From Paenibacillus xylanexedens (GTDB lineage: Bacteria > Bacillota > Bacilli > Paenibacillales > Paenibacillaceae): DNA of 64,000 bases. Location of the stretch: NCBI RefSeq assembly GCF_001908275.1, contig NZ_CP018620.1:4588001-4652000 (forward strand), given 5' to 3'. This document shows, in pieces, positions 5,614 to 47,080 of this stretch; position 1 is the first letter of the stretch, and each line of letters starts with the position of its first letter. A model generated the notes under the pieces. That model was not told the DNA's origin. It ran no database searches and was given only the letters and a program-made list of their open reading frames with translations. A program made the position numbers and the translations under genes.

Positions 5614-7185
5614 ATGATTAATATCCTGATTGTGGACGATCAAAAACACATTCGTGACGGCCTGCAGGCCATGCTGCATCAATTTCCTCTGGAGCTGAAC
5701 AACATATACTGTGCCGCGAGCGGGATTGAGGCGCTGTGCCTATTGCGGCAGCATTGCATTCACATCGTTATTACCGATATTAGGATGCCGGATATGGATG
5801 GGTTGGCACTCATGGCTCAAACCAAAGAGGAATACATGGATGTGGAATACCTCATTATCAGCGGTTATAGTGACTTTACATATGCCCAAAAAGCTATCGG
5901 GCTTGGGGCAAAGGGCTACTTGCTAAAACCTTTGAAGCGAGAGGATCTGCAACATTCCCTGGAGCATGTATGGCAAGAAATCCAGACACGGCAGGCACTT
6001 ACGCATAATATGCAGCGTGTATCCCGTCTCGCCCAAGAGACCGATCGTAAAGAATTAAGAATGTTTATGCAAGGTGCGTTAAGTGATGACGCATGGATTC
6101 TTCAGATTGAGGAACAAAATGTTGCGTTATGGCGTAATTATCGCCTAACCCTGCTGCGGGAAGAAGTTTGCATTAACCAGCCCGGGGCCAGCAGCGCCCA
6201 TAGCATGGAAGCCATTGCTTATCGTGTGTTTGGCAGACAAGGTTGTATTTGCCTGCAACATCGCCCATACCTGATCCTTGCGGTGGATGCGTCCATAGAT
6301 CCAAGTGTTTTGCCTGCAGCGCTCAAGGAAGGAAAGATCGATGCCATAACAGCCATGACTAACCCGATTCAGGGGTTAAAAGAACTACCCGACAGCTATA
6401 CCCAAGTGCTTGAGCTCTATCGCCACAGTTACCTGTTTCCTGATCAGTACAGTATCTTCCCAGCACATATTGAGCATATGGAACAGCAATGGCAACTTCC
6501 CTATGAAGACTTATATGAACTGTTCCAGTCGGTTGGAACAGATAACAGCGGAACATTCACTCAGGGTATTTCTGCAATATTTCACAAAAAGGTGCTGCAA
6601 CGTTATCCTATTCGCTATACCCAACAGCTCTGCGCTGCCACCGTTCAGATGATGGAGGAATACAAACGAGTTATCCACCCTTATATGGGGGAAGAAGCGC
6701 TGGATCTTGAATCCTTGCGTAACCTCTTTGATTATCAAGGGATGCGTGAGTATATACAAGCACTGCAACAGCAGCTGCTTCGGCTGAATCAGTTATATTA
6801 TGACTATAAGTGCAGCTATCGCCATTCGCAGGATCTAAATGAAGCCATTCGTTTTATACACGAAAGTTACCACAAACCGCTGGACCTCGCGATGGTATCC
6901 AATCATGTATCGCTTAATTATGCTTATTTTTCAAATCTGTTTAAGAAGAATATTGGTAAAGGTTTTGCTGAATACCTACGAGATGTGCGTCTGGATAAAG
7001 CGCGGCGGCTTCTCGCCGAAACCGATCATAAAATTGTGGAGGTGGCTGCTATGGTTGGATATGAAAGCTACAAAAGCTTTACACGCGCGTTCCGCCTTGT
7101 GATGGAAATTCAACCTACAGAGTATCGACAAATGATGCGCCAAAAGGTAGAACGTGAAGTGCAATATCACAGTACAAATATATAA
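5614..7185 (+). CDS. Response regulator with AraC-type DNA-binding domain, YesN type
   Basis: A 523-residue regulator. The receiver domain is at residues 1-120 with VDD near the start, Asp55 in VITDIRMPDMDG as phospho-acceptor, and LLKPL carrying the conserved Lys. A long middle region of unknown fold follows. The last 100 or so residues are two helix-turn-helix motifs of the AraC/XylS family, with VSLNYAYFSNLFKKNIGKGF and VAAMVGYESYKSFTRAFR as recognition parts. The ribosome site GGAGGGTGG lies inside the end of the kinase gene. By position it answers to the YesM-like kinase and probably activates the downstream glucanase gene. Confidence 0.92.
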   Translation: MINILIVDDQKHIRDGLQAMLHQFPLELNNIYCAASGIEALCLLRQHCIHIVITDIRMPDMDGLALMAQTKEEYMDVEYLIISGYSDFTYAQKAIGLGAKGYLLKPLKREDLQHSLEHVWQEIQTRQALTHNMQRVSRLAQETDRKELRMFMQGALSDDAWILQIEEQNVALWRNYRLTLLREEVCINQPGASSAHSMEAIAYRVFGRQGCICLQHRPYLILAVDASIDPSVLPAALKEGKIDAITAMTNPIQGLKELPDSYTQVLELYRHSYLFPDQYSIFPAHIEHMEQQWQLPYEDLYELFQSVGTDNSGTFTQGISAIFHKKVLQRYPIRYTQQLCAATVQMMEEYKRVIHPYMGEEALDLESLRNLFDYQGMREYIQALQQQLLRLNQLYYDYKCSYRHSQDLNEAIRFIHESYHKPLDLAMVSNHVSLNYAYFSNLFKKNIGKGFAEYLRDVRLDKARRLLAETDHKIVEVAAMVGYESYKSFTRAFRLVMEIQPTEYRQMMRQKVEREVQYHSTNI

Positions 7186-7243
7186 ATTGAATCAAAACCA
7201 AAAAAATTGGGATATAACAAAAATAATTGTACCTTTTCAGCAG

Positions 7244-7330
7244 ATTATCCTATTCGATAGAATAAAGATGTTCCCCGATGTAAGCGATTACCTTTATACG
7301 CATAGATTGGGAGAAACTATTATCCTATTC
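7244..7330 (+). repeat. 12-bp direct repeat in the GH16 leader
   Basis: ATTATCCTATTC occurs exactly at 7244-7255 and again at 7319-7330, 75 bp apart. The second copy directly abuts the AAGGAGG ribosome site of the GH16 gene. It may be a binding site for the adjacent AraC-type regulator or an RNA element; this is inference only. Confidence 0.5.
7279..7292 (+). promoter_or_regulatory. cre-like catabolite control site before GH16
   Basis: TGTAAGCGATTACC fits the CcpA operator consensus TGWAANCGNTNWCA at 13 of 14 positions. It lies 52 bases before the GH16 start, where bound CcpA would repress. Carbon catabolite repression of a polysaccharidase gene is expected in this group. Confidence 0.55.
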
Positions 7331-7343
7331 AAGGAGGGCAATT

Positions 7344-9392
7344 ATGAAACCATCTTACTTTACGGCGAAACGGTTTATGAAAAAGGTACTCGGTATGTTC
7401 CTTGTGGTTGTGATGCTGGCTAGTATTGGCTTACTGCCAGCTTCAAAGGTTCAGGCAGCGGGAACTACCGTAACCTCAATGGAGTACTTCTCACCAGCAG
7501 ACGGGCCTGTTATTTCAAAATCTGGGGTTGGCAAGGCCAGCTACGGATTTGTTATGCCTAAGTTCAATGGAGGCTCCGCGACATGGAATGATGTTTACAG
7601 TGATGTGGGCGTTAATGTAAAAGTGGGCAACAACTGGGTTGATATCGACCAGGCAGGCGGTTATATCTATAACCAAAACTGGGGGCACTGGAGCGATGGC
7701 GGCTTCAATGGTTATTGGTTCACCCTCTCCGCAACAACCGAGATTCAGCTGTACTCCAAAGCGAATGGTGTTAAGCTGGAGTATCAACTTGTATTCCAAA
7801 ACATCAACAAAACAACCATTACCGCGATGAATCCGACACAAGGTCCACAAATCACGGCAAGTTTCACAGGCGGTGCAGGCTTTACATATCCAACGTTCAA
7901 CAATAATCCTGCGGTCACTTATGAAGCTGTTGCGGATGATTTGAAGGTGTATGTCAAACCTGTAAACAGCAGCAACTGGATTGATATTGACAATAACGCT
8001 GCCAGCGGCTGGATCTACGATCACAATTTTGGCCAATTCACTGATGGTGGCGGTGGGTACTGGTTTAACGTAACGGAGTCGATCAATGTCAAATTAGAAT
8101 CAAAGACTTCTTCGGCTAATCTTGTTTATACCATTACGTTTAATGAACCTACAAGAAATTCATATGTCATTACGCCATACGAAGGAACAACCTTCACAGC
8201 AGATGCGAATGGTTCCATTGGGGTTCCGCTTCCCAAAATTGATGGGGGCGCGCCAATCGCCAAGGAACTGGGCAACTTCGTATACCAGATTAACATCAAT
8301 GGGCAATGGGTGGATTTGAGTAACTCCAGCCAGAGCAAATTTGCATACTCCGGTAATGGGTATAACAATATGTCCGATGCCAATCAGTGGGGTTACTGGT
8401 CCGATTATATCTATGGTCTTTGGTTCCAGCCAATCCAGGAAAATATGCAGATCCGTATTGGATATCCGCTGAACGGACAGGCGGGTGGAAATATTGGCAA
8501 CAACTTCGTGAACTATACTTTCATCGGCAATCCAAATGCTCCGCGTCCGGATGTATCCGATCAAGAGGATATCTCAATCGGAACACCAACCGATCCGGCA
8601 ATCGCGGGCATGAACCTCATCTGGCAGGATGAGTTTAACGGAACTACGCTGGATATAAGTAAATGGAACTATGAAACAGGATATTATCTCAACAACGATC
8701 CTGCTACCTGGGGATGGGGAAATGCAGAGCTGCAGCACTACACAAACAGCACTCAAAATGTATATGTACAGGACGGAAAGCTGAATATCAAAGCCATGAA
8801 CGACAGCAAATCTTTCCCGCAGGATCCGAATCGGTATGCACAGTATTCTTCAGGAAAGATTAACACCAAGGATAAACTGTCCTTGAAATACGGCAGAGTA
8901 GATTTTCGTGCCAAGCTTCCTACAGGTGATGGTGTATGGCCAGCACTGTGGATGCTTCCACAAGATTCGGTATACGGCACTTGGGCTGCATCAGGAGAAA
9001 TTGATGTTATGGAAGCGAGAGGCCGTCTGCCTGGATCAGTAAGCGGTACCATACACTTTGGTGGACAATGGCCCGGGAACCAGTATTCGGGCGGCGATTA
9101 TCACTTCCCGGAGGGGCAAACTTTTGCCAATGATTATCATGTATACTCGGTAGTCTGGGAAGAGGACAACATTAAATGGTATGTAGACGGCAAGTTTTAC
9201 TATAAAGTCACTAACCAGCAGTGGTATTCCGCAGCTGCACCGAATAATCCGAATGCACCTTTCGATGAGCCGTTCTACCTCATTATGAACTTGGCAGTCG
9301 GCGGAAACTTTGACGGCGGCCGTACCCCGAACGCCTCCGATATCCCGGCGACTATGCAAGTGGATTATGTACGCGTGTATAAAGAACAGTAA
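7344..9392 (+). CDS. glcA: Secreted endo-beta-1,3-glucanase (laminarinase), GH16
   Basis: A 682-residue secreted enzyme that hydrolyses internal beta-1,3 bonds of laminarin-type or fungal wall glucan. The signal peptide ends around VQA-AG at residue 38. Three related modules of about 85 residues follow, each ending in an aromatic-rich NWGHWSDGG, NFGQFTDGG or QWGYWSDYI stretch and probably binding glucan. The GH16 domain spans about 430-682 with the catalytic motif GEIDVME near 551-557, holding nucleophile and acid/base Glu. Length, order and sequence agree closely, from memory, with glucan endo-1,3-beta-glucosidase A1 (glcA, 682 residues) of 'Bacillus circulans'. AAGGAGGG precedes the ATG by six bases. 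The upstream YesMN pair probably controls it. Confidence 0.95.
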   Translation: MKPSYFTAKRFMKKVLGMFLVVVMLASIGLLPASKVQAAGTTVTSMEYFSPADGPVISKSGVGKASYGFVMPKFNGGSATWNDVYSDVGVNVKVGNNWVDIDQAGGYIYNQNWGHWSDGGFNGYWFTLSATTEIQLYSKANGVKLEYQLVFQNINKTTITAMNPTQGPQITASFTGGAGFTYPTFNNNPAVTYEAVADDLKVYVKPVNSSNWIDIDNNAASGWIYDHNFGQFTDGGGGYWFNVTESINVKLESKTSSANLVYTITFNEPTRNSYVITPYEGTTFTADANGSIGVPLPKIDGGAPIAKELGNFVYQININGQWVDLSNSSQSKFAYSGNGYNNMSDANQWGYWSDYIYGLWFQPIQENMQIRIGYPLNGQAGGNIGNNFVNYTFIGNPNAPRPDVSDQEDISIGTPTDPAIAGMNLIWQDEFNGTTLDISKWNYETGYYLNNDPATWGWGNAELQHYTNSTQNVYVQDGKLNIKAMNDSKSFPQDPNRYAQYSSGKINTKDKLSLKYGRVDFRAKLPTGDGVWPALWMLPQDSVYGTWAASGEIDVMEARGRLPGSVSGTIHFGGQWPGNQYSGGDYHFPEGQTFANDYHVYSVVWEEDNIKWYVDGKFYYKVTNQQWYSAAAPNNPNAPFDEPFYLIMNLAVGGNFDGGRTPNASDIPATMQVDYVRVYKEQ

Positions 9393-9483
9393 TTTGCGAT
9401 TTCGGATAGAGCGAATGAAGATCAGATAGAACAGATCCTGGGCAAACCGGAGAACCTGAAATCTCATACTCTATAATTGGCTT

Positions 9484-9530
9484 ACGGCCGATTCCCAATA
9501 TTTCTACCTGGGAATCGGTCGTTTAAATTT
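9484..9530 (+). terminator. Terminator after the GH16 gene
   Basis: A 14-bp stem (ACGGCCGATTCCCA at 9484-9497 with TGGGAATCGGTCGT at 9509-9522, one G-T pair) is followed by TTAAATTT. Confidence 0.75.
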
Positions 9531-9869
9531 AGACTTGATAATTTAGTTCATCGGCTGCAACTCTTGTCGAAAGACAAGAACATAGGTAAGTACTGGTTAC
9601 CTGAATACAATGAGTCAGGTGACGACCTATACTTTTGTGCTAAGTGACAATTTATAGATATAATGTAGATGCACAATGACACAAAGTCACCAAACAAGAG
9701 AACCCTTTAGAGCTAAGGTTTATCAATATTTAGTAGGGAACAGATTCTAGTTGAATGCAACCGCAATCTGTTGAACTGAATAATTAATATGGCAGGACAT
9801 CTGCATCATGCCTTATTACCGCTTAGCAAGCTGCTATAAGTTAATTTTCTATTTTGAAGAAGGAAGGGG
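9531..9869. other. Non-coding stretch with short repeats
   Basis: No gene was seen. CTTGTC-GAAA-GACAAG at 9563-9578 is a perfect six-bp hairpin with a GNRA-type loop and runs into ACAAGAACAT, the core of the dispersed repeat found elsewhere in this window. TTTTGTGCTAAGTGAC at 9633-9648 recurs with one mismatch at 42791-42806. The rest has no structure I recognise. Confidence 0.5.
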
Positions 9870-9941
9870 ATGACCTTGCATTTACAAAAAAATGGGCTTT
9901 ACGTTGATAATGGAAAGTTACATATGGACTATATGCAATGA
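9870..9941 (+). CDS. Possible 23-residue peptide
   Basis: ATG 9870 stands behind AAGGAAGGGG and reads 23 codons to TGA 9939-9941. The product is hydrophilic (MTLHLQKNGLYVDNGKL then HMDYMQ). The ribosome site is good but the frame is very short and lies in a decayed region, so it may be the start of a truncated gene. I do not recognise it. Confidence 0.25.
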   Translation: MTLHLQKNGLYVDNGKLHMDYMQ

Positions 9942-9971
9942 AAAGATTAATTTCATTGAAGGAGGTTCGAG

Positions 9972-10170
9972 ATGAAAAACGAAGAATGTTGTCCTGAATG
10001 TGGAGGAACAAAATTTGGGGGAGGGCAAGTCGCACGGCGAAGCTAGGGTATATCCTATGAAAAAGATGCTAACATTAGGATCTGATGTTACTCATGTAAT
10101 TTGTATAACGTGTGGATTTATTTTAAAAAGTTTTGTTAAAGAGCCACATAAATTTGAGGATAATAAATAA
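9972..10170 (+). pseudogene. Small zinc-ribbon protein, frameshifted
   Basis: GGAGG at 9961 precedes ATG 9972, which reads MKNEECCPECGG and ends early at TAG after 24 codons. The next frame continues without a gap through EARVYPMKKM to HVICITCGFILKS and TAA 10168-10170. Joined, this is a roughly 65-residue protein with two CxxC knuckles (CPEC and CITC), like the small zinc-ribbon 'nucleotide-binding' proteins common in Bacillales. One indel near 10030-10040, within GTCGCACGGCGAAGC, explains the break. It is either a real mutation or a read error. Confidence 0.55.
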
Positions 10171-10228
10171 AATTGTAATAATTGTCCAAGGACACAAACA
10201 TTGTTCAAACTATTAAGAACTCTTTAGA

Positions 10229-10300
10229 TGTCGAGGGACAAGAACTTGTACCGATTGCCGAAATAGACAAGAACATGGTCCCGTTTCCGATTAGGTGTAT
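10229..10300. repeat. Two copies of the dispersed GACAAGAAC repeat
   Basis: TGTCGAGGGACAAGAACTTG at 10229 is followed by TACCGATTGCCG, and a second copy GACAAGAACATGGTCCC at 10266 is followed by GTTTCCGATTAGG. A diverged third copy, GGACACAAACATTGTTC, starts at about 10190. The same motif recurs at 13187, 41697, 42876, 45259, 45746 and, weaker, 47206. A small open frame over this place is made of the repeats and is not a gene. Confidence 0.7.
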
Positions 10301-10473
10301 ATTTAATCGTTATTTTGCCCGTCAATTCATTAACCTAACGGGCAGGATAGTTTTAGATTCGATTGAGTTTGAATAGTACATATGCTATCATTTACATCAC
10401 CTTTATGCTCGATTAACAGCGGAGCTCAATGCTCAATAATTTACACAAATATTTATAAGAGGAGTGGCCTACT

Positions 10474-11010
10474 TTGAGAAGCGTCAACATACATATTAGG
10501 GATATTTCCGTCGATGATGCTGCGGGACTACTCCAGTTGCAGAAAGAAAACCGTGATTTTTTTGACAGCTACTCACCGACACGCACCGACGAATTTTATA
10601 CGATGGAAGGACAGCTTAAGCGTATCCAAAAGCAGGCCGAAGATAGAAAAAATGACCAAGCATATAATTTTGGAATCTTTACAAACACCGATAATATTTT
10701 AGTGGGGACGGTAAGCCTTTTCCAAGTGATGCGGGGCCCTCTTCAAAGTGCATATATCGGATATGATTTAGATCGAAAAAATAACGGTAGAGGCTACACG
10801 ACTGATGCTGTTCGGTTAGTCGTTGACCATGGCTTCAATAAATTGAAATTACATAGAATTGAAGCAGGGGCAATGACGCATAACATCGCTTCAATTCGAG
10901 TGCTTGAGAAGGTCGGCTTTCAAAAAGAAGGCATCGCTCGACAGAATGTTCATATTAATGGAAAATGGGAGGATCATCAGATACTCGCGATTCTTAACCC
11001 ATACAGTTAG
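10474..11010 (+). CDS. GNAT-family N-acetyltransferase, RimJ/RimL-like
   Basis: A 178-residue complete GNAT enzyme. The acetyl-CoA motif appears as RKNNGRGYTTDAVRLV, and the C-terminal part NIASIRVLEKVGFQKEGIAR is the usual RimJ/RimL signature. Members acetylate N-termini of ribosomal proteins or small amines; B. subtilis YdaF and YjcK are of this size, and the substrate here is unknown. The start is TTG 10474 with AGGAGTGG about eight bases upstream. It is one of the few intact genes in this region and has no operon partner. Confidence 0.85.
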   Translation: MRSVNIHIRDISVDDAAGLLQLQKENRDFFDSYSPTRTDEFYTMEGQLKRIQKQAEDRKNDQAYNFGIFTNTDNILVGTVSLFQVMRGPLQSAYIGYDLDRKNNGRGYTTDAVRLVVDHGFNKLKLHRIEAGAMTHNIASIRVLEKVGFQKEGIARQNVHINGKWEDHQILAILNPYS

Positions 11011-18258: not shown

Positions 18259-18386
18259 AAAGAGATATTTCAATCATTTTGCCTTTCCCGTAGTATAAAT
18301 ATGAAAGCTTACAAGCGCGGTGGGAACATTACAAGGATCTGCTGTTCATGAGGAGACCTGCCGGGAGATGAAGGAGTGTCGAGAAG

Positions 18387-20669
18387 ATGAGTCGTGACAT
18401 CAAACAACTGGTAAAACAATTAACCTTGACTGAAAAAGCCGAGCTATGCTCAGGGAGTGCTTTCTGGACTACACAAGCTGTAGAAAGGTTAGGAATTCCT
18501 TCGATCATGATGACAGATGGTCCTCATGGACTGCGTAAGCAAGCAGGCGAGGCAGATCACCTGGGTTTGAACGAGAGTGTGCCTTCAACCTGTTTTCCTT
18601 CAGCGGTTGGCCTGGCCAGTTCATGGAATCGTGACCTTGTTCAACTTGTAGGAGCGACGATCGGAAAAGAAGCACAGGCAGAAGATGTAGCCATTCTGCT
18701 CGGCCCAGGGGCTAACATCAAACGTTCCCCGCTTTGCGGGCGCAACTTCGAATATTTCTCAGAAGATCCTTATCTGACTGGAGAACTTGCCGCTGCTCAT
18801 ATAACAGGTGTTCAGAGTCAGGGAGTTGGAACGTCTCTGAAGCACTTTGCGGTAAACAACCAAGAGCATCGTCGTATGACGACAGATGCCATTTTAGATG
18901 AACGGACATTAAGAGAAATCTATTTGACCGGATTCGAGAAAGCAGTCAAACAATCACAGCCATGGACGGTTATGTCCTCATATAATAAGGTTAATGGTAC
19001 ATATGCTTCTCAGCATGAGTACTTACTCACTACTATCCTGAAGGAAGAATGGGGTCATGAAGGTTTTGTAGTCACGGATTGGTCTGCGGTGAATGAAATT
19101 GCACCAAGTATTGCAGCAGGTCTGGGGCTTGAGATGCCATCATCCAACGGAGAAGGACCAAAACAGATTGTAGAAGCGGTAAACCGAGGGGAACTGACTG
19201 AAGAGCAATTGGACCGTGCCGTAGAGAGGCTTTTAGGTATCATTTTCAAAACGGTTGATAACAACCGTCCCGATACCACTTACGACCAGGAACAACATCA
19301 TCAGATTGCCAGAAAAGCAGCATGTGAAACGATGGTTCTATTAAAAAATGAACATCAAATTCTCCCGCTTAAAAAAGAAGGCCACATTGCTGTCATCGGA
19401 GAGTTAGCCGACAAAGTAAGATATCAAGGCGGGGGCAGTTCCCATATCAAACCAACCAAGCTGGATAGCGCCTTTGAACAGATGGCCTTGCTTGCAGGCT
19501 CTAACGCAACGCTCACATACAAGTCAGGTTACAACCTCGACTCCGATGAGAGTGCTCCGAATTTGGTAGCTGAAGCGGTTGAATCTGCAAGAGCAGCTGA
19601 TGTCGCCGTGTTGTTCATCGGTCTGCCTGACCGCTACGAGTCCGAGGGATACGATCGATCACATCTGGATATTCCGGTGAACCAGCAGGAACTTATAACA
19701 GCCGTTGCTGCTGTCCAGCCTAACGTGGTGGTTGTGCTCAGCAATGGCTCACCTATTGTTATGCCTTGGCTTAACAATGCAAAAGCTGTACTTGAAGCGT
19801 ACCTGGGTGGACAGGCTGCAGGAGGAGCAATCGCTGATCTGTTATTCGGAGAAGTTAATCCCAGTGGGAAGCTGGCAGAGACTTTCCCGCAATCCTTAAA
19901 GCATAATCCATCTTCGCTGTTCTTCCCTGGTGATGGGGATCGGGTCGAATATAGAGAAGGCATTTATGTGGGTTATCGCTATTATGACGGCAAAGATATT
20001 GAACCTTTATTCCCCTTCGGTTATGGTTTGAGCTATACTCAATTTGAGTATTCACAGCTGAACGCAAGCCAAACGGAATGCAAGGATACAGATATAATCA
20101 CTGTTACGGTTAACGTGAAAAACATAGGGCAACGGTATGGTCAAGAAGTGGTACAACTATATGTTCATGATCGGCAGACAACCGTTAGCCGCCCTGAAAA
20201 AGAACTGAAAGGTTTCGCCAAGGTTTCTCTTGAGCCGGAGGAAGAGAAGACTGTTACCTTTAATTTAGATAAACGAAGCTTTGCGTATTACAATATTGAC
20301 TTGAAGGATTGGCATGTTGAGAGTGGTGAGTATGATCTCCTGATCGGTTCTTCATCTCGTCAAATCATCCTGCAAAAGACCGTTCATGTAGAATCGACTT
20401 CACCTGAAATCATTCCAGTCTACGACCGTAACACAGCCCTGGGAGAATTGCTCTCTAATCCGAAAACCATGGCTGTACTGGGACAATTGCAGGGATTTGC
20501 TCCACAAAGTGCTGAAAATGCCCACTCAGATGCAGTCTCTTCAGAGATGATTCAAGCATCCATGCGTTATATGCCACTGCGAGCTCTTATTCCTTTTACG
20601 GGGGGAGCACTTACAGAAGAGTTGCTCTCACAGCTTCTTGCAGGCTTGAATGCAGCCGTGCGCCAGTAA
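18387..20669 (+). CDS. Beta-glucosidase, glycoside hydrolase family 3, with extra C-terminal module
   Basis: A 760-residue cytosolic GH3 enzyme. The N-terminal barrel holds [12 protein letters not shown], a [12 protein letters not shown] substrate loop and the nucleophile Asp at about 231 in VVTDWSAV. The alpha/beta sandwich spans about 310-530 and a fibronectin III-like domain follows to about 670. Residues 677-760 are an additional helical module beginning [16 protein letters not shown] that is not part of the catalytic fold. Related modules end the GH78 protein and begin the SDR at 36364. Members release terminal beta-linked glucose or xylose. GAAGGAG precedes the ATG by ten or so bases. 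The promoter faces the divergent YesN-like gene. Confidence 0.92.
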
Positions 20670-45157: not shown

Positions 45158-45258
45158 GTCTAATTAGAATTTTGTTGACACACATATATCCTAATGGCTT
45201 TATCCAGTTGAGTGCGTGAAGCGCGTGTCGACGAGTTTTAGTAGGGAACTTCTTTTCC

Positions 45259-45300
45259 TGTCGAGGGACAAGAAAATAGCCCGATTAACGATTAGATGAG
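45259..45300. repeat. Copy of the dispersed repeat
   Basis: TGTCGAGGGACAAGAAAATA, then GCCCGATTAACGATTAGATG. Both halves of the family are present with a changed centre. From 45301 to 45532 no gene was seen, only an unsupported frame starting near 45397. Confidence 0.65.
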
Positions 45301-45532
45301 TATCAAAATAAAAAAGCTATATAGAGGAGAGTGGGCTTTAACTTGGGTCAGTAGCGCTACAGGGAAATACTTAACCCATAGAAAGGGATGAAATAGTTGT
45401 TTACTTGGATACGTATTGTGTCTTATAATTTTCACAAAGATACATATCGTATCTTAAAAAGTTTGTATCGCACAAGTAATGTAAGGGTGCTCGCATCTTG
45501 GTTCCAGTTTTTGCAGAAAGAGGGGACGACCG

Positions 45533-45670
45533 ATGGAAACGAAAAAAACGCCTTGGTAGGCACCGGAATTAGAGGTGCTGGATGTGCAGCAAACGGTGGC
45601 TGGCTATGGATTCAGGCAAATTGATTGGATCGAAGAACATGATGCATACCTATATGATCCATCGTCCTGA
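45533..45670 (+). pseudogene. Lasso-peptide precursor, paeninodin-like, with in-frame amber stop
   Basis: ATG 45533, with GAGGGG ahead, reads METKKTPW, then TAG at 45557-45559, then in the same frame APELEVLDVQQTVAG and on to DAYLYDPSS with TGA 45668-45670. The leader motif PxLEVLDVxxT and the Thr at -2 are those of firmicute lasso peptides such as paeninodin. The predicted 23-residue core begins Ala1-Gly2, has Asp9 as ring acceptor as in paeninodin (from memory), and ends in Ser, the residue phosphorylated there. No lasso cyclase, protease or RiPP-recognition gene is visible nearby. One base change would explain the amber codon. Confidence 0.65.
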
Positions 45671-45710: not shown

Positions 45711-45735
45711 GGTCGCCTGTGGGCGGCTTTTTCGA
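45711..45735 (+). terminator. Terminator after the lasso precursor
   Basis: GTCGCC at 45712-45717 pairs with GGCGGC at 45722-45727, followed by five T. It gives the precursor its own transcript end. Confidence 0.65.
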
Positions 45736-46130: not shown

Positions 46131-46243
46131 TGGAAGGAAGCATTGCTTACGGATAGCGGCGCATTCAACCATATATTGGATTTGTTTATTATGTTAAAGA
46201 GGTTCTACACCATTTATAGCGTTGTGAGAGGGGAGTGATCATT

Positions 46244-47080
46244 TTGAATACTTCTAAACAAATGATGTCTCATAATTCCAATGATCGTTTTAGTAAACTT
46301 GGAATTTATAGCGTCCAAAGTGTCTTTATTATTCTGTTCTTGCTGTTAACCCCTGTCTACTATTTGAACAAATGGGACTTTAAACGTCACAAAAAACGGA
46401 ATCCTTTCTACACCAGTAAATTGGTTCGATTGCAAGAGCGTTATCCGATTTTCTACGAATTGGCCATGTACGTTCAAAATTTTCCTATTCCTCGTAATGT
46501 TTACAAATTTTTACCCCCTTTAAAAGGCGATGTTCTTCAGGTGGGCTGTGGTACAGGTTTATTGAACAAGTATCTTCGCAAGCAGAAGGATGTTCGTTTT
46601 CTTAACATGGATCCGAATATAAATGCTCTAAAACTTGGAAAGAAGTGGGGAAGGTTTAATTCTTATATCCATGCTTTCATTGATAAACCGACTTCTTTAC
46701 CTGATCATAGCTGCGATATGATTTTGTTTGCAAGAAGCTTTCATCACATTCGCTATCACAAAAAAGCCTTCATAGAGAGCTGCAGACTGTTACGTGACGG
46801 TGGATCTATCATTATTGCGGACCCGGTTGTTCTCAAGTCTCTTTCAGGTTCTGTAACGGACGGTGGTTATATGGCGAACTCTTCGATTGATGGTGTAATT
46901 TGGAGATTTACCAAAGAAACATTAATTACTCACATAGAGCGCTGTCTTCCTCCTGAATTAAAGATAGAATCAGTAACCGAAACGAGACAAGTGCATGTAA
47001 CGAATTATAATTTATTTGTACCTCAGACAGATATCGTAGTGGTACTGCGAAAAAGGGAGGCTGTATACAATGACAACTAA
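46244..47080 (+). CDS. Class I SAM-dependent methyltransferase, membrane-anchored
   Basis: A 278-residue protein. A hydrophobic segment at about 21-40 (SVFIILFLLLTPVYYL) suggests a membrane anchor. The Rossmann methyltransferase core follows with LQVGCGTGLLNKYL at about 95-108 as SAM-binding motif I, NMDPN as motif II and LLRDGGSIIIADP as the later motif. The acceptor is unknown. I prefer TTG 46244, about ten bases behind AGAGGGGA; GTG 46235 lies too close to that site. It stands alone and has a strong terminator. A link with the broken lasso precursor 570 bases upstream cannot be shown. Confidence 0.78.
   Translation: MNTSKQMMSHNSNDRFSKLGIYSVQSVFIILFLLLTPVYYLNKWDFKRHKKRNPFYTSKLVRLQERYPIFYELAMYVQNFPIPRNVYKFLPPLKGDVLQVGCGTGLLNKYLRKQKDVRFLNMDPNINALKLGKKWGRFNSYIHAFIDKPTSLPDHSCDMILFARSFHHIRYHKKAFIESCRLLRDGGSIIIADPVVLKSLSGSVTDGGYMANSSIDGVIWRFTKETLITHIERCLPPELKIESVTETRQVHVTNYNLFVPQTDIVVVLRKREAVYNDN

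Follow-up and report, generated by a model that had tools for sequence, protein, structure and literature searches.

A stand-alone paeninodin-family precursor in Paenibacillus xylanexedens: a probable pseudogene whose intact relatives appear co-regulated with a distant lasso operon

We analysed a 64-kb stretch of the Paenibacillus xylanexedens genome (the window; G000:C1:4588001-4652000 of a 7.1-Mb genome), which carries on its forward strand a short frame whose translation reads METKKTPW, a stop, APELEVLDVQQTVAGYGFRQIDWIEEHDAYLYDPSS and the natural stop. The first stop is a TAG at codon 9 (45557-45559), with Trp8 on one side and Pro11 on the other. The features at the locus are as follows.

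45400-45429, forward strand: sigma-A-like promoter, TTTACT - 18 - TATAAT, with 10/12 consensus matches.
45408-45422, forward strand: putative operator 1, GATACGTATTGTGTC, within the promoter spacer; 1/15 positions variable among 13 clade copies.
45439-45453, forward strand: putative operator 2, GATACATATCGTATC, 31 bp 3' of operator 1; tandem boxes also lie at the lasso-operon promoter.
45517-45525, forward strand: Shine-Dalgarno sequence AAAGAGGGG, one G less than the AAAGGAGGGG of most relatives in the 15-copy alignment.
45533-45670, forward strand: precursor frame with TAG; leader of 22 codons, core of 23 codons.
45572-45586, forward strand: possible internal restart by sequence reading; GAGGTG, 6 bases, GTG codon 18.
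45711-45734, forward strand: intrinsic terminator, GGTCGCC-loop-GGCGGC then T5; -17.5 kcal/mol, z -4.0 on folding.
46235-47080: methyltransferase gene beside the precursor frame.

The promoter scan found one such site and shuffled sequences averaged 1.1, so the support for the promoter is its conservation in the orphan copies described below. The terminator was also conserved across these copies; it was unlisted by the consensus scan and was revealed by folding. Two short stretches of the window (45194-45225 and 45259-45314) recur widely in genus genomes at 80-97% identity and are dispersed repeats.

With X in place of the stop, the frame scored 47.4 bits (E 1e-12; curated cut-off 27 bits) against NF033524, the NCBIfam model of the paeninodin family. 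Two intact precursors encoded elsewhere in this genome matched the frame at 62% (E 8e-15) and 50% (E 9e-11). The score and these matches together exclude a chance origin. Like the known paeninodin-family precursors (PadeA; NF033524), the frame has Thr at leader position -2, a 23-residue core, a ring-forming Asp9 and a C-terminal Ser at position 23 (...QQT-V / AGYGFRQID...SS, with the cleavage site placed by analogy); of the WxxP leader motif of the family, Trp and Pro are in frame and the first x is the TAG. A sequence-only reading of this DNA had already described a paeninodin-type precursor with an amber codon in its leader and a core of this length and these two residues, and the model score and the translation bore it out. 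Known members are described next to their enzymes, whereas the window frame stands alone, with no adjacent C, K, B1, B2 or transporter genes other than generic ABC transporters in the window, and has a stop in its leader. Because the TAG at codon 9 leaves it without a translatable frame, we filed the gene as a family pseudogene and not as a working member.

When the 64-kb window was searched by tblastn with the cluster proteins of this genome, no gene for C, K, B1, B2 or a nucleotidyltransferase turned up, as the sequence-only reading had stated of processing genes; the other matches were two ABC transporters only, at 26 and 38% identity. That reading had offered enzymes encoded elsewhere as one option, and a genome search located a complete paeninodin-type operon with a kinase at C1 2.935-2.944 Mb (locus L002), 1.69 Mb from the window frame. 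It comprises a sulfotransferase, cyclase C, two intact precursors, an HprK-like kinase, B1, B2, a nucleotidyltransferase and an ABC transporter. B1 and B2 both exceeded their model cut-offs, the cyclase scored 373 bits with the lasso cyclase model, short of its strict cut-off (525 bits), and the kinase scored 28.4 bits with the Pfam HprK domain (below 33.3). The two L002 precursors are those that match the window frame, which makes the latter a third paralog. Its core is a close paralog of the own-genome cluster core AGTGYRQIDWVTVHDADLYDPTS, so the earlier description of the core as unlike paeninodin was incomplete.

Some precursor match was found in 70 of 75 genus genomes, and we count 15 copies in 14 of the 75 as the orphan family (G000, G004 with two, G005, G006, G010, G011, G030, G033, G035, G037, G038, G053, G068 and G069), in which G010 and G011, at 68% identity, were placed by promoter and stand-alone position. 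Alignment of the 15 copies revealed a common layout of promoter, two GATAC boxes, Shine-Dalgarno sequence, about 45 codons and terminator. The 14 copies located elsewhere were each examined with about 20 kb of surrounding sequence (one flank only for the second G004 copy, at a contig end), and no gene for C, K, B1, B2 or a nucleotidyltransferase was seen there. The window frame had been called an orphan, and it does stand alone; it is not a lone orphan but one of a conserved 15-copy family. In a scan of 42 loci from named organisms, 33 had all six cluster genes and nine had none of the six; the named relatives are Paenibacillus species and include P. xylanexedens, P. amylolyticus, P. barcinonensis and P. 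polysaccharolyticus. B2 is present in every orphan-bearing genome, yet it occurs in 72 of the 75 genus genomes overall, and the operator pair and the lasso cluster are likewise present in nearly all of them, so co-occurrence of orphan and cluster alone proves nothing.

The same methyltransferase gene adjoins 9 of the 15 orphan copies, the window included. We considered the orphans as relics of a deleted on-site lasso cluster and rejected this: neither the window nor any of the 14 other copies retains a fragment of a C, K, B1, B2 or nucleotidyltransferase gene, and the shared methyltransferase neighbour also counted against it. Tailoring of the product by the methyltransferase was set aside as well, since the region upstream of that gene also occurs in G054, which has no orphan match.

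Nine of the 15 copies have an ATG and an open frame. The sequence-only reading had named, as the outcome that would speak against it, a lack of both lasso machinery and any open homolog in related genomes; both are present. In-frame stops occur in two copies, the window TAG and, together with a lost start, a TGA in the second G004 copy. Four others start with ATA, ATT, CTG and CTG instead of ATG (G033, G035, G005 and G053; loci L070, L073, L075 and L076), and all four sit behind a strong Shine-Dalgarno sequence. The database protein P0006 is annotated from an ATT start, and the non-ATG copies may still be translated. Five copies have one extra leader codon and two additional terminal Ser residues, and G006, classed as intact, ends in Phe instead of Ser.

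The window copy differs from its nearest relative by four changed codons and zero synonymous differences. Its core had been described as intact, which holds for Asp9 and Ser23; core position 17 is Tyr in the window copy and Asp in 35/35 cluster precursors. The nonsense codon, the shortened Shine-Dalgarno sequence and the Tyr at an otherwise Asp/Glu core position point to a relic as the most likely reading, in agreement with one of the three options first proposed. Relatives carry a sense codon at the TAG site, the version that the sequence-only reading had proposed to look for in sister strains. That same observation would fit a sequencing or assembly error in an intact gene, which we regard as highly improbable: the assembly has two contigs and is 99.99% complete, and the lesion is a substitution accompanied by further marks of decay in the same short gene.

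Translation through the TAG, by a suppressor tRNA or misreading, would still yield the precursor, and the frame after the stop is indeed open to its natural end with Asp9, Ser23 and the leader motif kept. A PylS search of the own genome, however, gave three matches, all below the cut-off (such matches occurred in 13/14 control genomes, above the cut-off in one), which does not bear out the suppressed or misread amber suggested earlier. The shortened Shine-Dalgarno sequence and the altered core position 17 are also what is expected without selection, and we give readthrough only the faintest chance. Restart at the internal GTG (45584) would produce a 28-residue peptide that keeps the core and loses the B1-binding part of the leader (WxxP). 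In its favour, GAGGTG lies six bases 5' of the GTG, and the database protein P0023 has the same form, with ...AYLYDPSS like the window. Against it, GAGGTG is dictated by the coding of LEVL in all copies, and a peptide without WxxP should not bind B1, on which cutting by B2 depends according to the available part of PMC5067487. Internal restart thus seems to us quite unlikely, and a relic remains our reading of the window copy.

We compared selection on the orphan and cluster precursors with codon models. These excluded the start codon and one inserted codon and masked stops and missing codons; in runs with a fixed omega, kappa kept its estimated value. The 33 cluster precursors gave an omega of 0.074 (2 delta lnL 308), and those of eight of the 14 orphan-bearing genomes, trimmed to 42 codons, gave 0.095 (2 delta lnL 46.3 vs omega 1). 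For the clade sets, from which G010 and G011 were left out, omega was 0.97 in the seven intact orphans, where omega 1 was not rejected and omega 0.2 was (16.6), and 0.77 in all thirteen copies. As omega 1 is not rejected for the seven intact copies, the open orphans could also be drifting. When the two distant copies were included, the nine intact orphans gave an omega of 0.30 and omega 1 was rejected (18.1). The positions of the changes were also compared over the 36 positions from the Trp, with 35 cluster precursors as reference (those of the 33 loci and the two in the own genome, the first of which was left out when variability was judged). All 10 positions variable in the seven intact copies fell among the 21 cluster-variable ones (Fisher p 0.0014). 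With five altered copies added, p was 0.009 and two cluster-invariant positions were changed: Pro to Leu in G033 and core Asp17 to Glu in G035, each of them an altered copy.

These data bear on a further explanation, in which the transcript or the operators are what is kept, as a small RNA or a regulator sink, and the peptide is irrelevant in the clade. Operator 1 was the least variable stretch measured in the 13 clade copies, and both it (1/15 positions) and the 3' end (13/70) vary less than the core codons (20/69); the omega near 1 and the recurrence of start and stop lesions fit this explanation too. Changes in intact copies nevertheless avoid all cluster-invariant positions, and omega 1 is rejected once the two distant copies are included, so we allow this explanation a small chance. 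We read the pattern as one of orphan precursors that vary where variation is tolerated and decay repeatedly, with the window copy probably among the dead ones.

Each orphan promoter has a pair of boxes resembling GATAC-N5-GTATC at a spacing of 30-32 bp; among ten of these promoters, the spacing was 31 in eight, 32 in one and, by reading, 30 in one. The lasso-operon promoter has the same box pair, 31 bp apart, in 32 of 33 named cluster loci and in the own genome, where the pair lies immediately 5' of the first operon gene. Strict GATAC-N5-GTATC occurred exactly once per locus in 41 of the 42 named loci (832,807 bases), against a chance expectation of about 0.8 that assumes equal base frequencies; L117 has no strict box and was left out of the spacing table. 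The box-bearing loci are related and so not independent, and one record is labelled Neobacillus mesonae. At cluster loci the strict box sits in the operon promoter, with 3.4-3.7 kb between it and the downstream precursor; at orphan loci it precedes the start by about 95 bases. In 33 cluster promoters (32 named and the own), at least 9/10 box positions were matched 31 bases from the strict box, with a mean match over offsets of 2.7 (offset 31 included). The own genome contains 13 occurrences of GATACRNANNGTATC and none of the reversed control; by reading, at least 4 of the 13 sites appear within coding sequence. The stand-alone precursor family thus appears to be co-regulated with the distant lasso operon, judging from the promoter boxes, and its intact copies probably belong to the lasso regulon as in-trans members.

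The same box was found at the promoter of a capsule operon encoding CpsB/CapC, Wzz, an AAA ATPase and nucleotidyl and sugar transferases, and it was kept in 30/30 capsule promoters read (the best 30 of 52 matches).

L142 (G000:C1:2355000-2367000), about 5647-10944: capsule operon with box promoter, adjoined by a divergent Xre-type HTH gene at 5647-6015.

Because this box adjoins the Xre-type gene, an Xre-type repressor is a candidate regulator of the boxes, which we offer as a guess. Xre, which represses PBSX in Bacillus subtilis, recognises a GATAC...GTATC palindrome. A literature search on the GATAC box, PBSX Xre and paeninodin regulation, in which few subscription journals were covered, found nothing relevant.

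A second stand-alone precursor-like ORF, MKELQNTSNNTVKQVWECPRMEVLDISETMNGGQSIWQYVWDGEFWKLELLVS, was found via its box at G000:C1:3339284-3339442 (L141), and its family is present in 31 of the 75 genus genomes. One of the 31 matches came without a locus; in the 30 loci read, the box was upstream in 30/30 and lay 80-130 bases before the Trp codon in 28/30. This family is under strong purifying selection (omega 0.086; 2 delta lnL 146). It passes the paeninodin cut-off narrowly (29.3-29.4 bits; homolog 37.1), and its database names are in some cases paeninodin family lasso peptide and in others hypothetical protein. By reading, no lasso enzymes were seen near the own-genome gene, whose neighbours resemble housekeeping genes. 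The leader has WxxP. In the core, as placed by analogy, positions 7-9 lack Asp and Glu, and a usual lasso ring is therefore not expected.

Taken together, we consider it likely that the window gene is a pseudogene of a stand-alone paeninodin-family precursor and that its intact relatives are satellites of the lasso regulon, processed in trans. The proposed mechanism builds on published work, of which the available parts state that the WxxP leader binds B1 in the paeninodin family (PMC13381572), that PadeB1 has an affinity of about 5 nM for its leader and cutting by B2 requires B1 (PMC5067487), and that PadeK acts on the precursor by phosphorylating its C-terminal Ser (PMC9266682). In this mechanism, a DNA-binding protein, probably an Xre-type repressor, would act on the tandem GATAC boxes at the satellite, the lasso operon and the capsule operon, and once transcription is on, the satellite precursor would be produced alongside the cluster enzymes. 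Its WxxP leader would dock on B1, K would phosphorylate the terminal Ser, B2 would cleave after Thr-X, C would join Ala1 to Asp9, and the ABC transporter would export the finished product. The window transcript would yield METKKTPW only; because the stop falls ahead of the Pro of the B1-binding motif, no product would be expected from it.

A broader reading is possible, and we advance it tentatively: the lasso systems of these Paenibacillus may be scattered regulons in which a single enzyme operon acts on its own precursors and on at least two stand-alone families, all of them, and the capsule operon, under one GATAC box. The same enzymes might make a non-lasso product from the family without a ring acid, or be titrated by it, and the window gene would be a dead member of the other family.

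Linear polyphosphorylated peptides (LPPs) share the leader-binding logic and co-occur with paeninodin clusters. They differ in having a YxxP leader and a signal-peptidase-type LppS, whereas the orphans have WxxP and no such enzyme gene was seen adjoining them; the LPP motif YxxPxVLxHQxIxFETxxS was not matched by the window frame (W, stop, APELEVLDVQQT) (PMC13381572, available in part). Unclustered RiPP genes such as lanthipeptide proteases likewise split one pathway over several loci. In those systems it is the protease that lies at a distance, whereas here it is a lasso precursor, and the cluster retains its own precursors (PMC8960859, available in part). A search of titles and the starts of abstracts among the entries listed, covering few subscription journals, found no report of orphan, distant, stand-alone or unclustered lasso precursors, nor of such an arrangement. 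Our results suggest that lasso precursors can be encoded far from their enzymes; as precursors are usually sought beside enzymes, distant ones can be missed or dismissed. The window relic is ordinary in itself; what is of interest is the stand-alone arrangement, together with the second family and the capsule link. The available part of PMC13381572 states that the role of paeninodins is unknown and that a part in biofilm formation is untested speculation. A box common to the lasso operon, two stand-alone families and the capsule operon would make the paeninodin-biofilm link directly testable. Two proteins with carboxypeptidase-regulatory-like domains (L145, about 18311-19282, and L141, 9511-10755) were also observed, one with a box just upstream and the other lying immediately 3' of the second stand-alone precursor.
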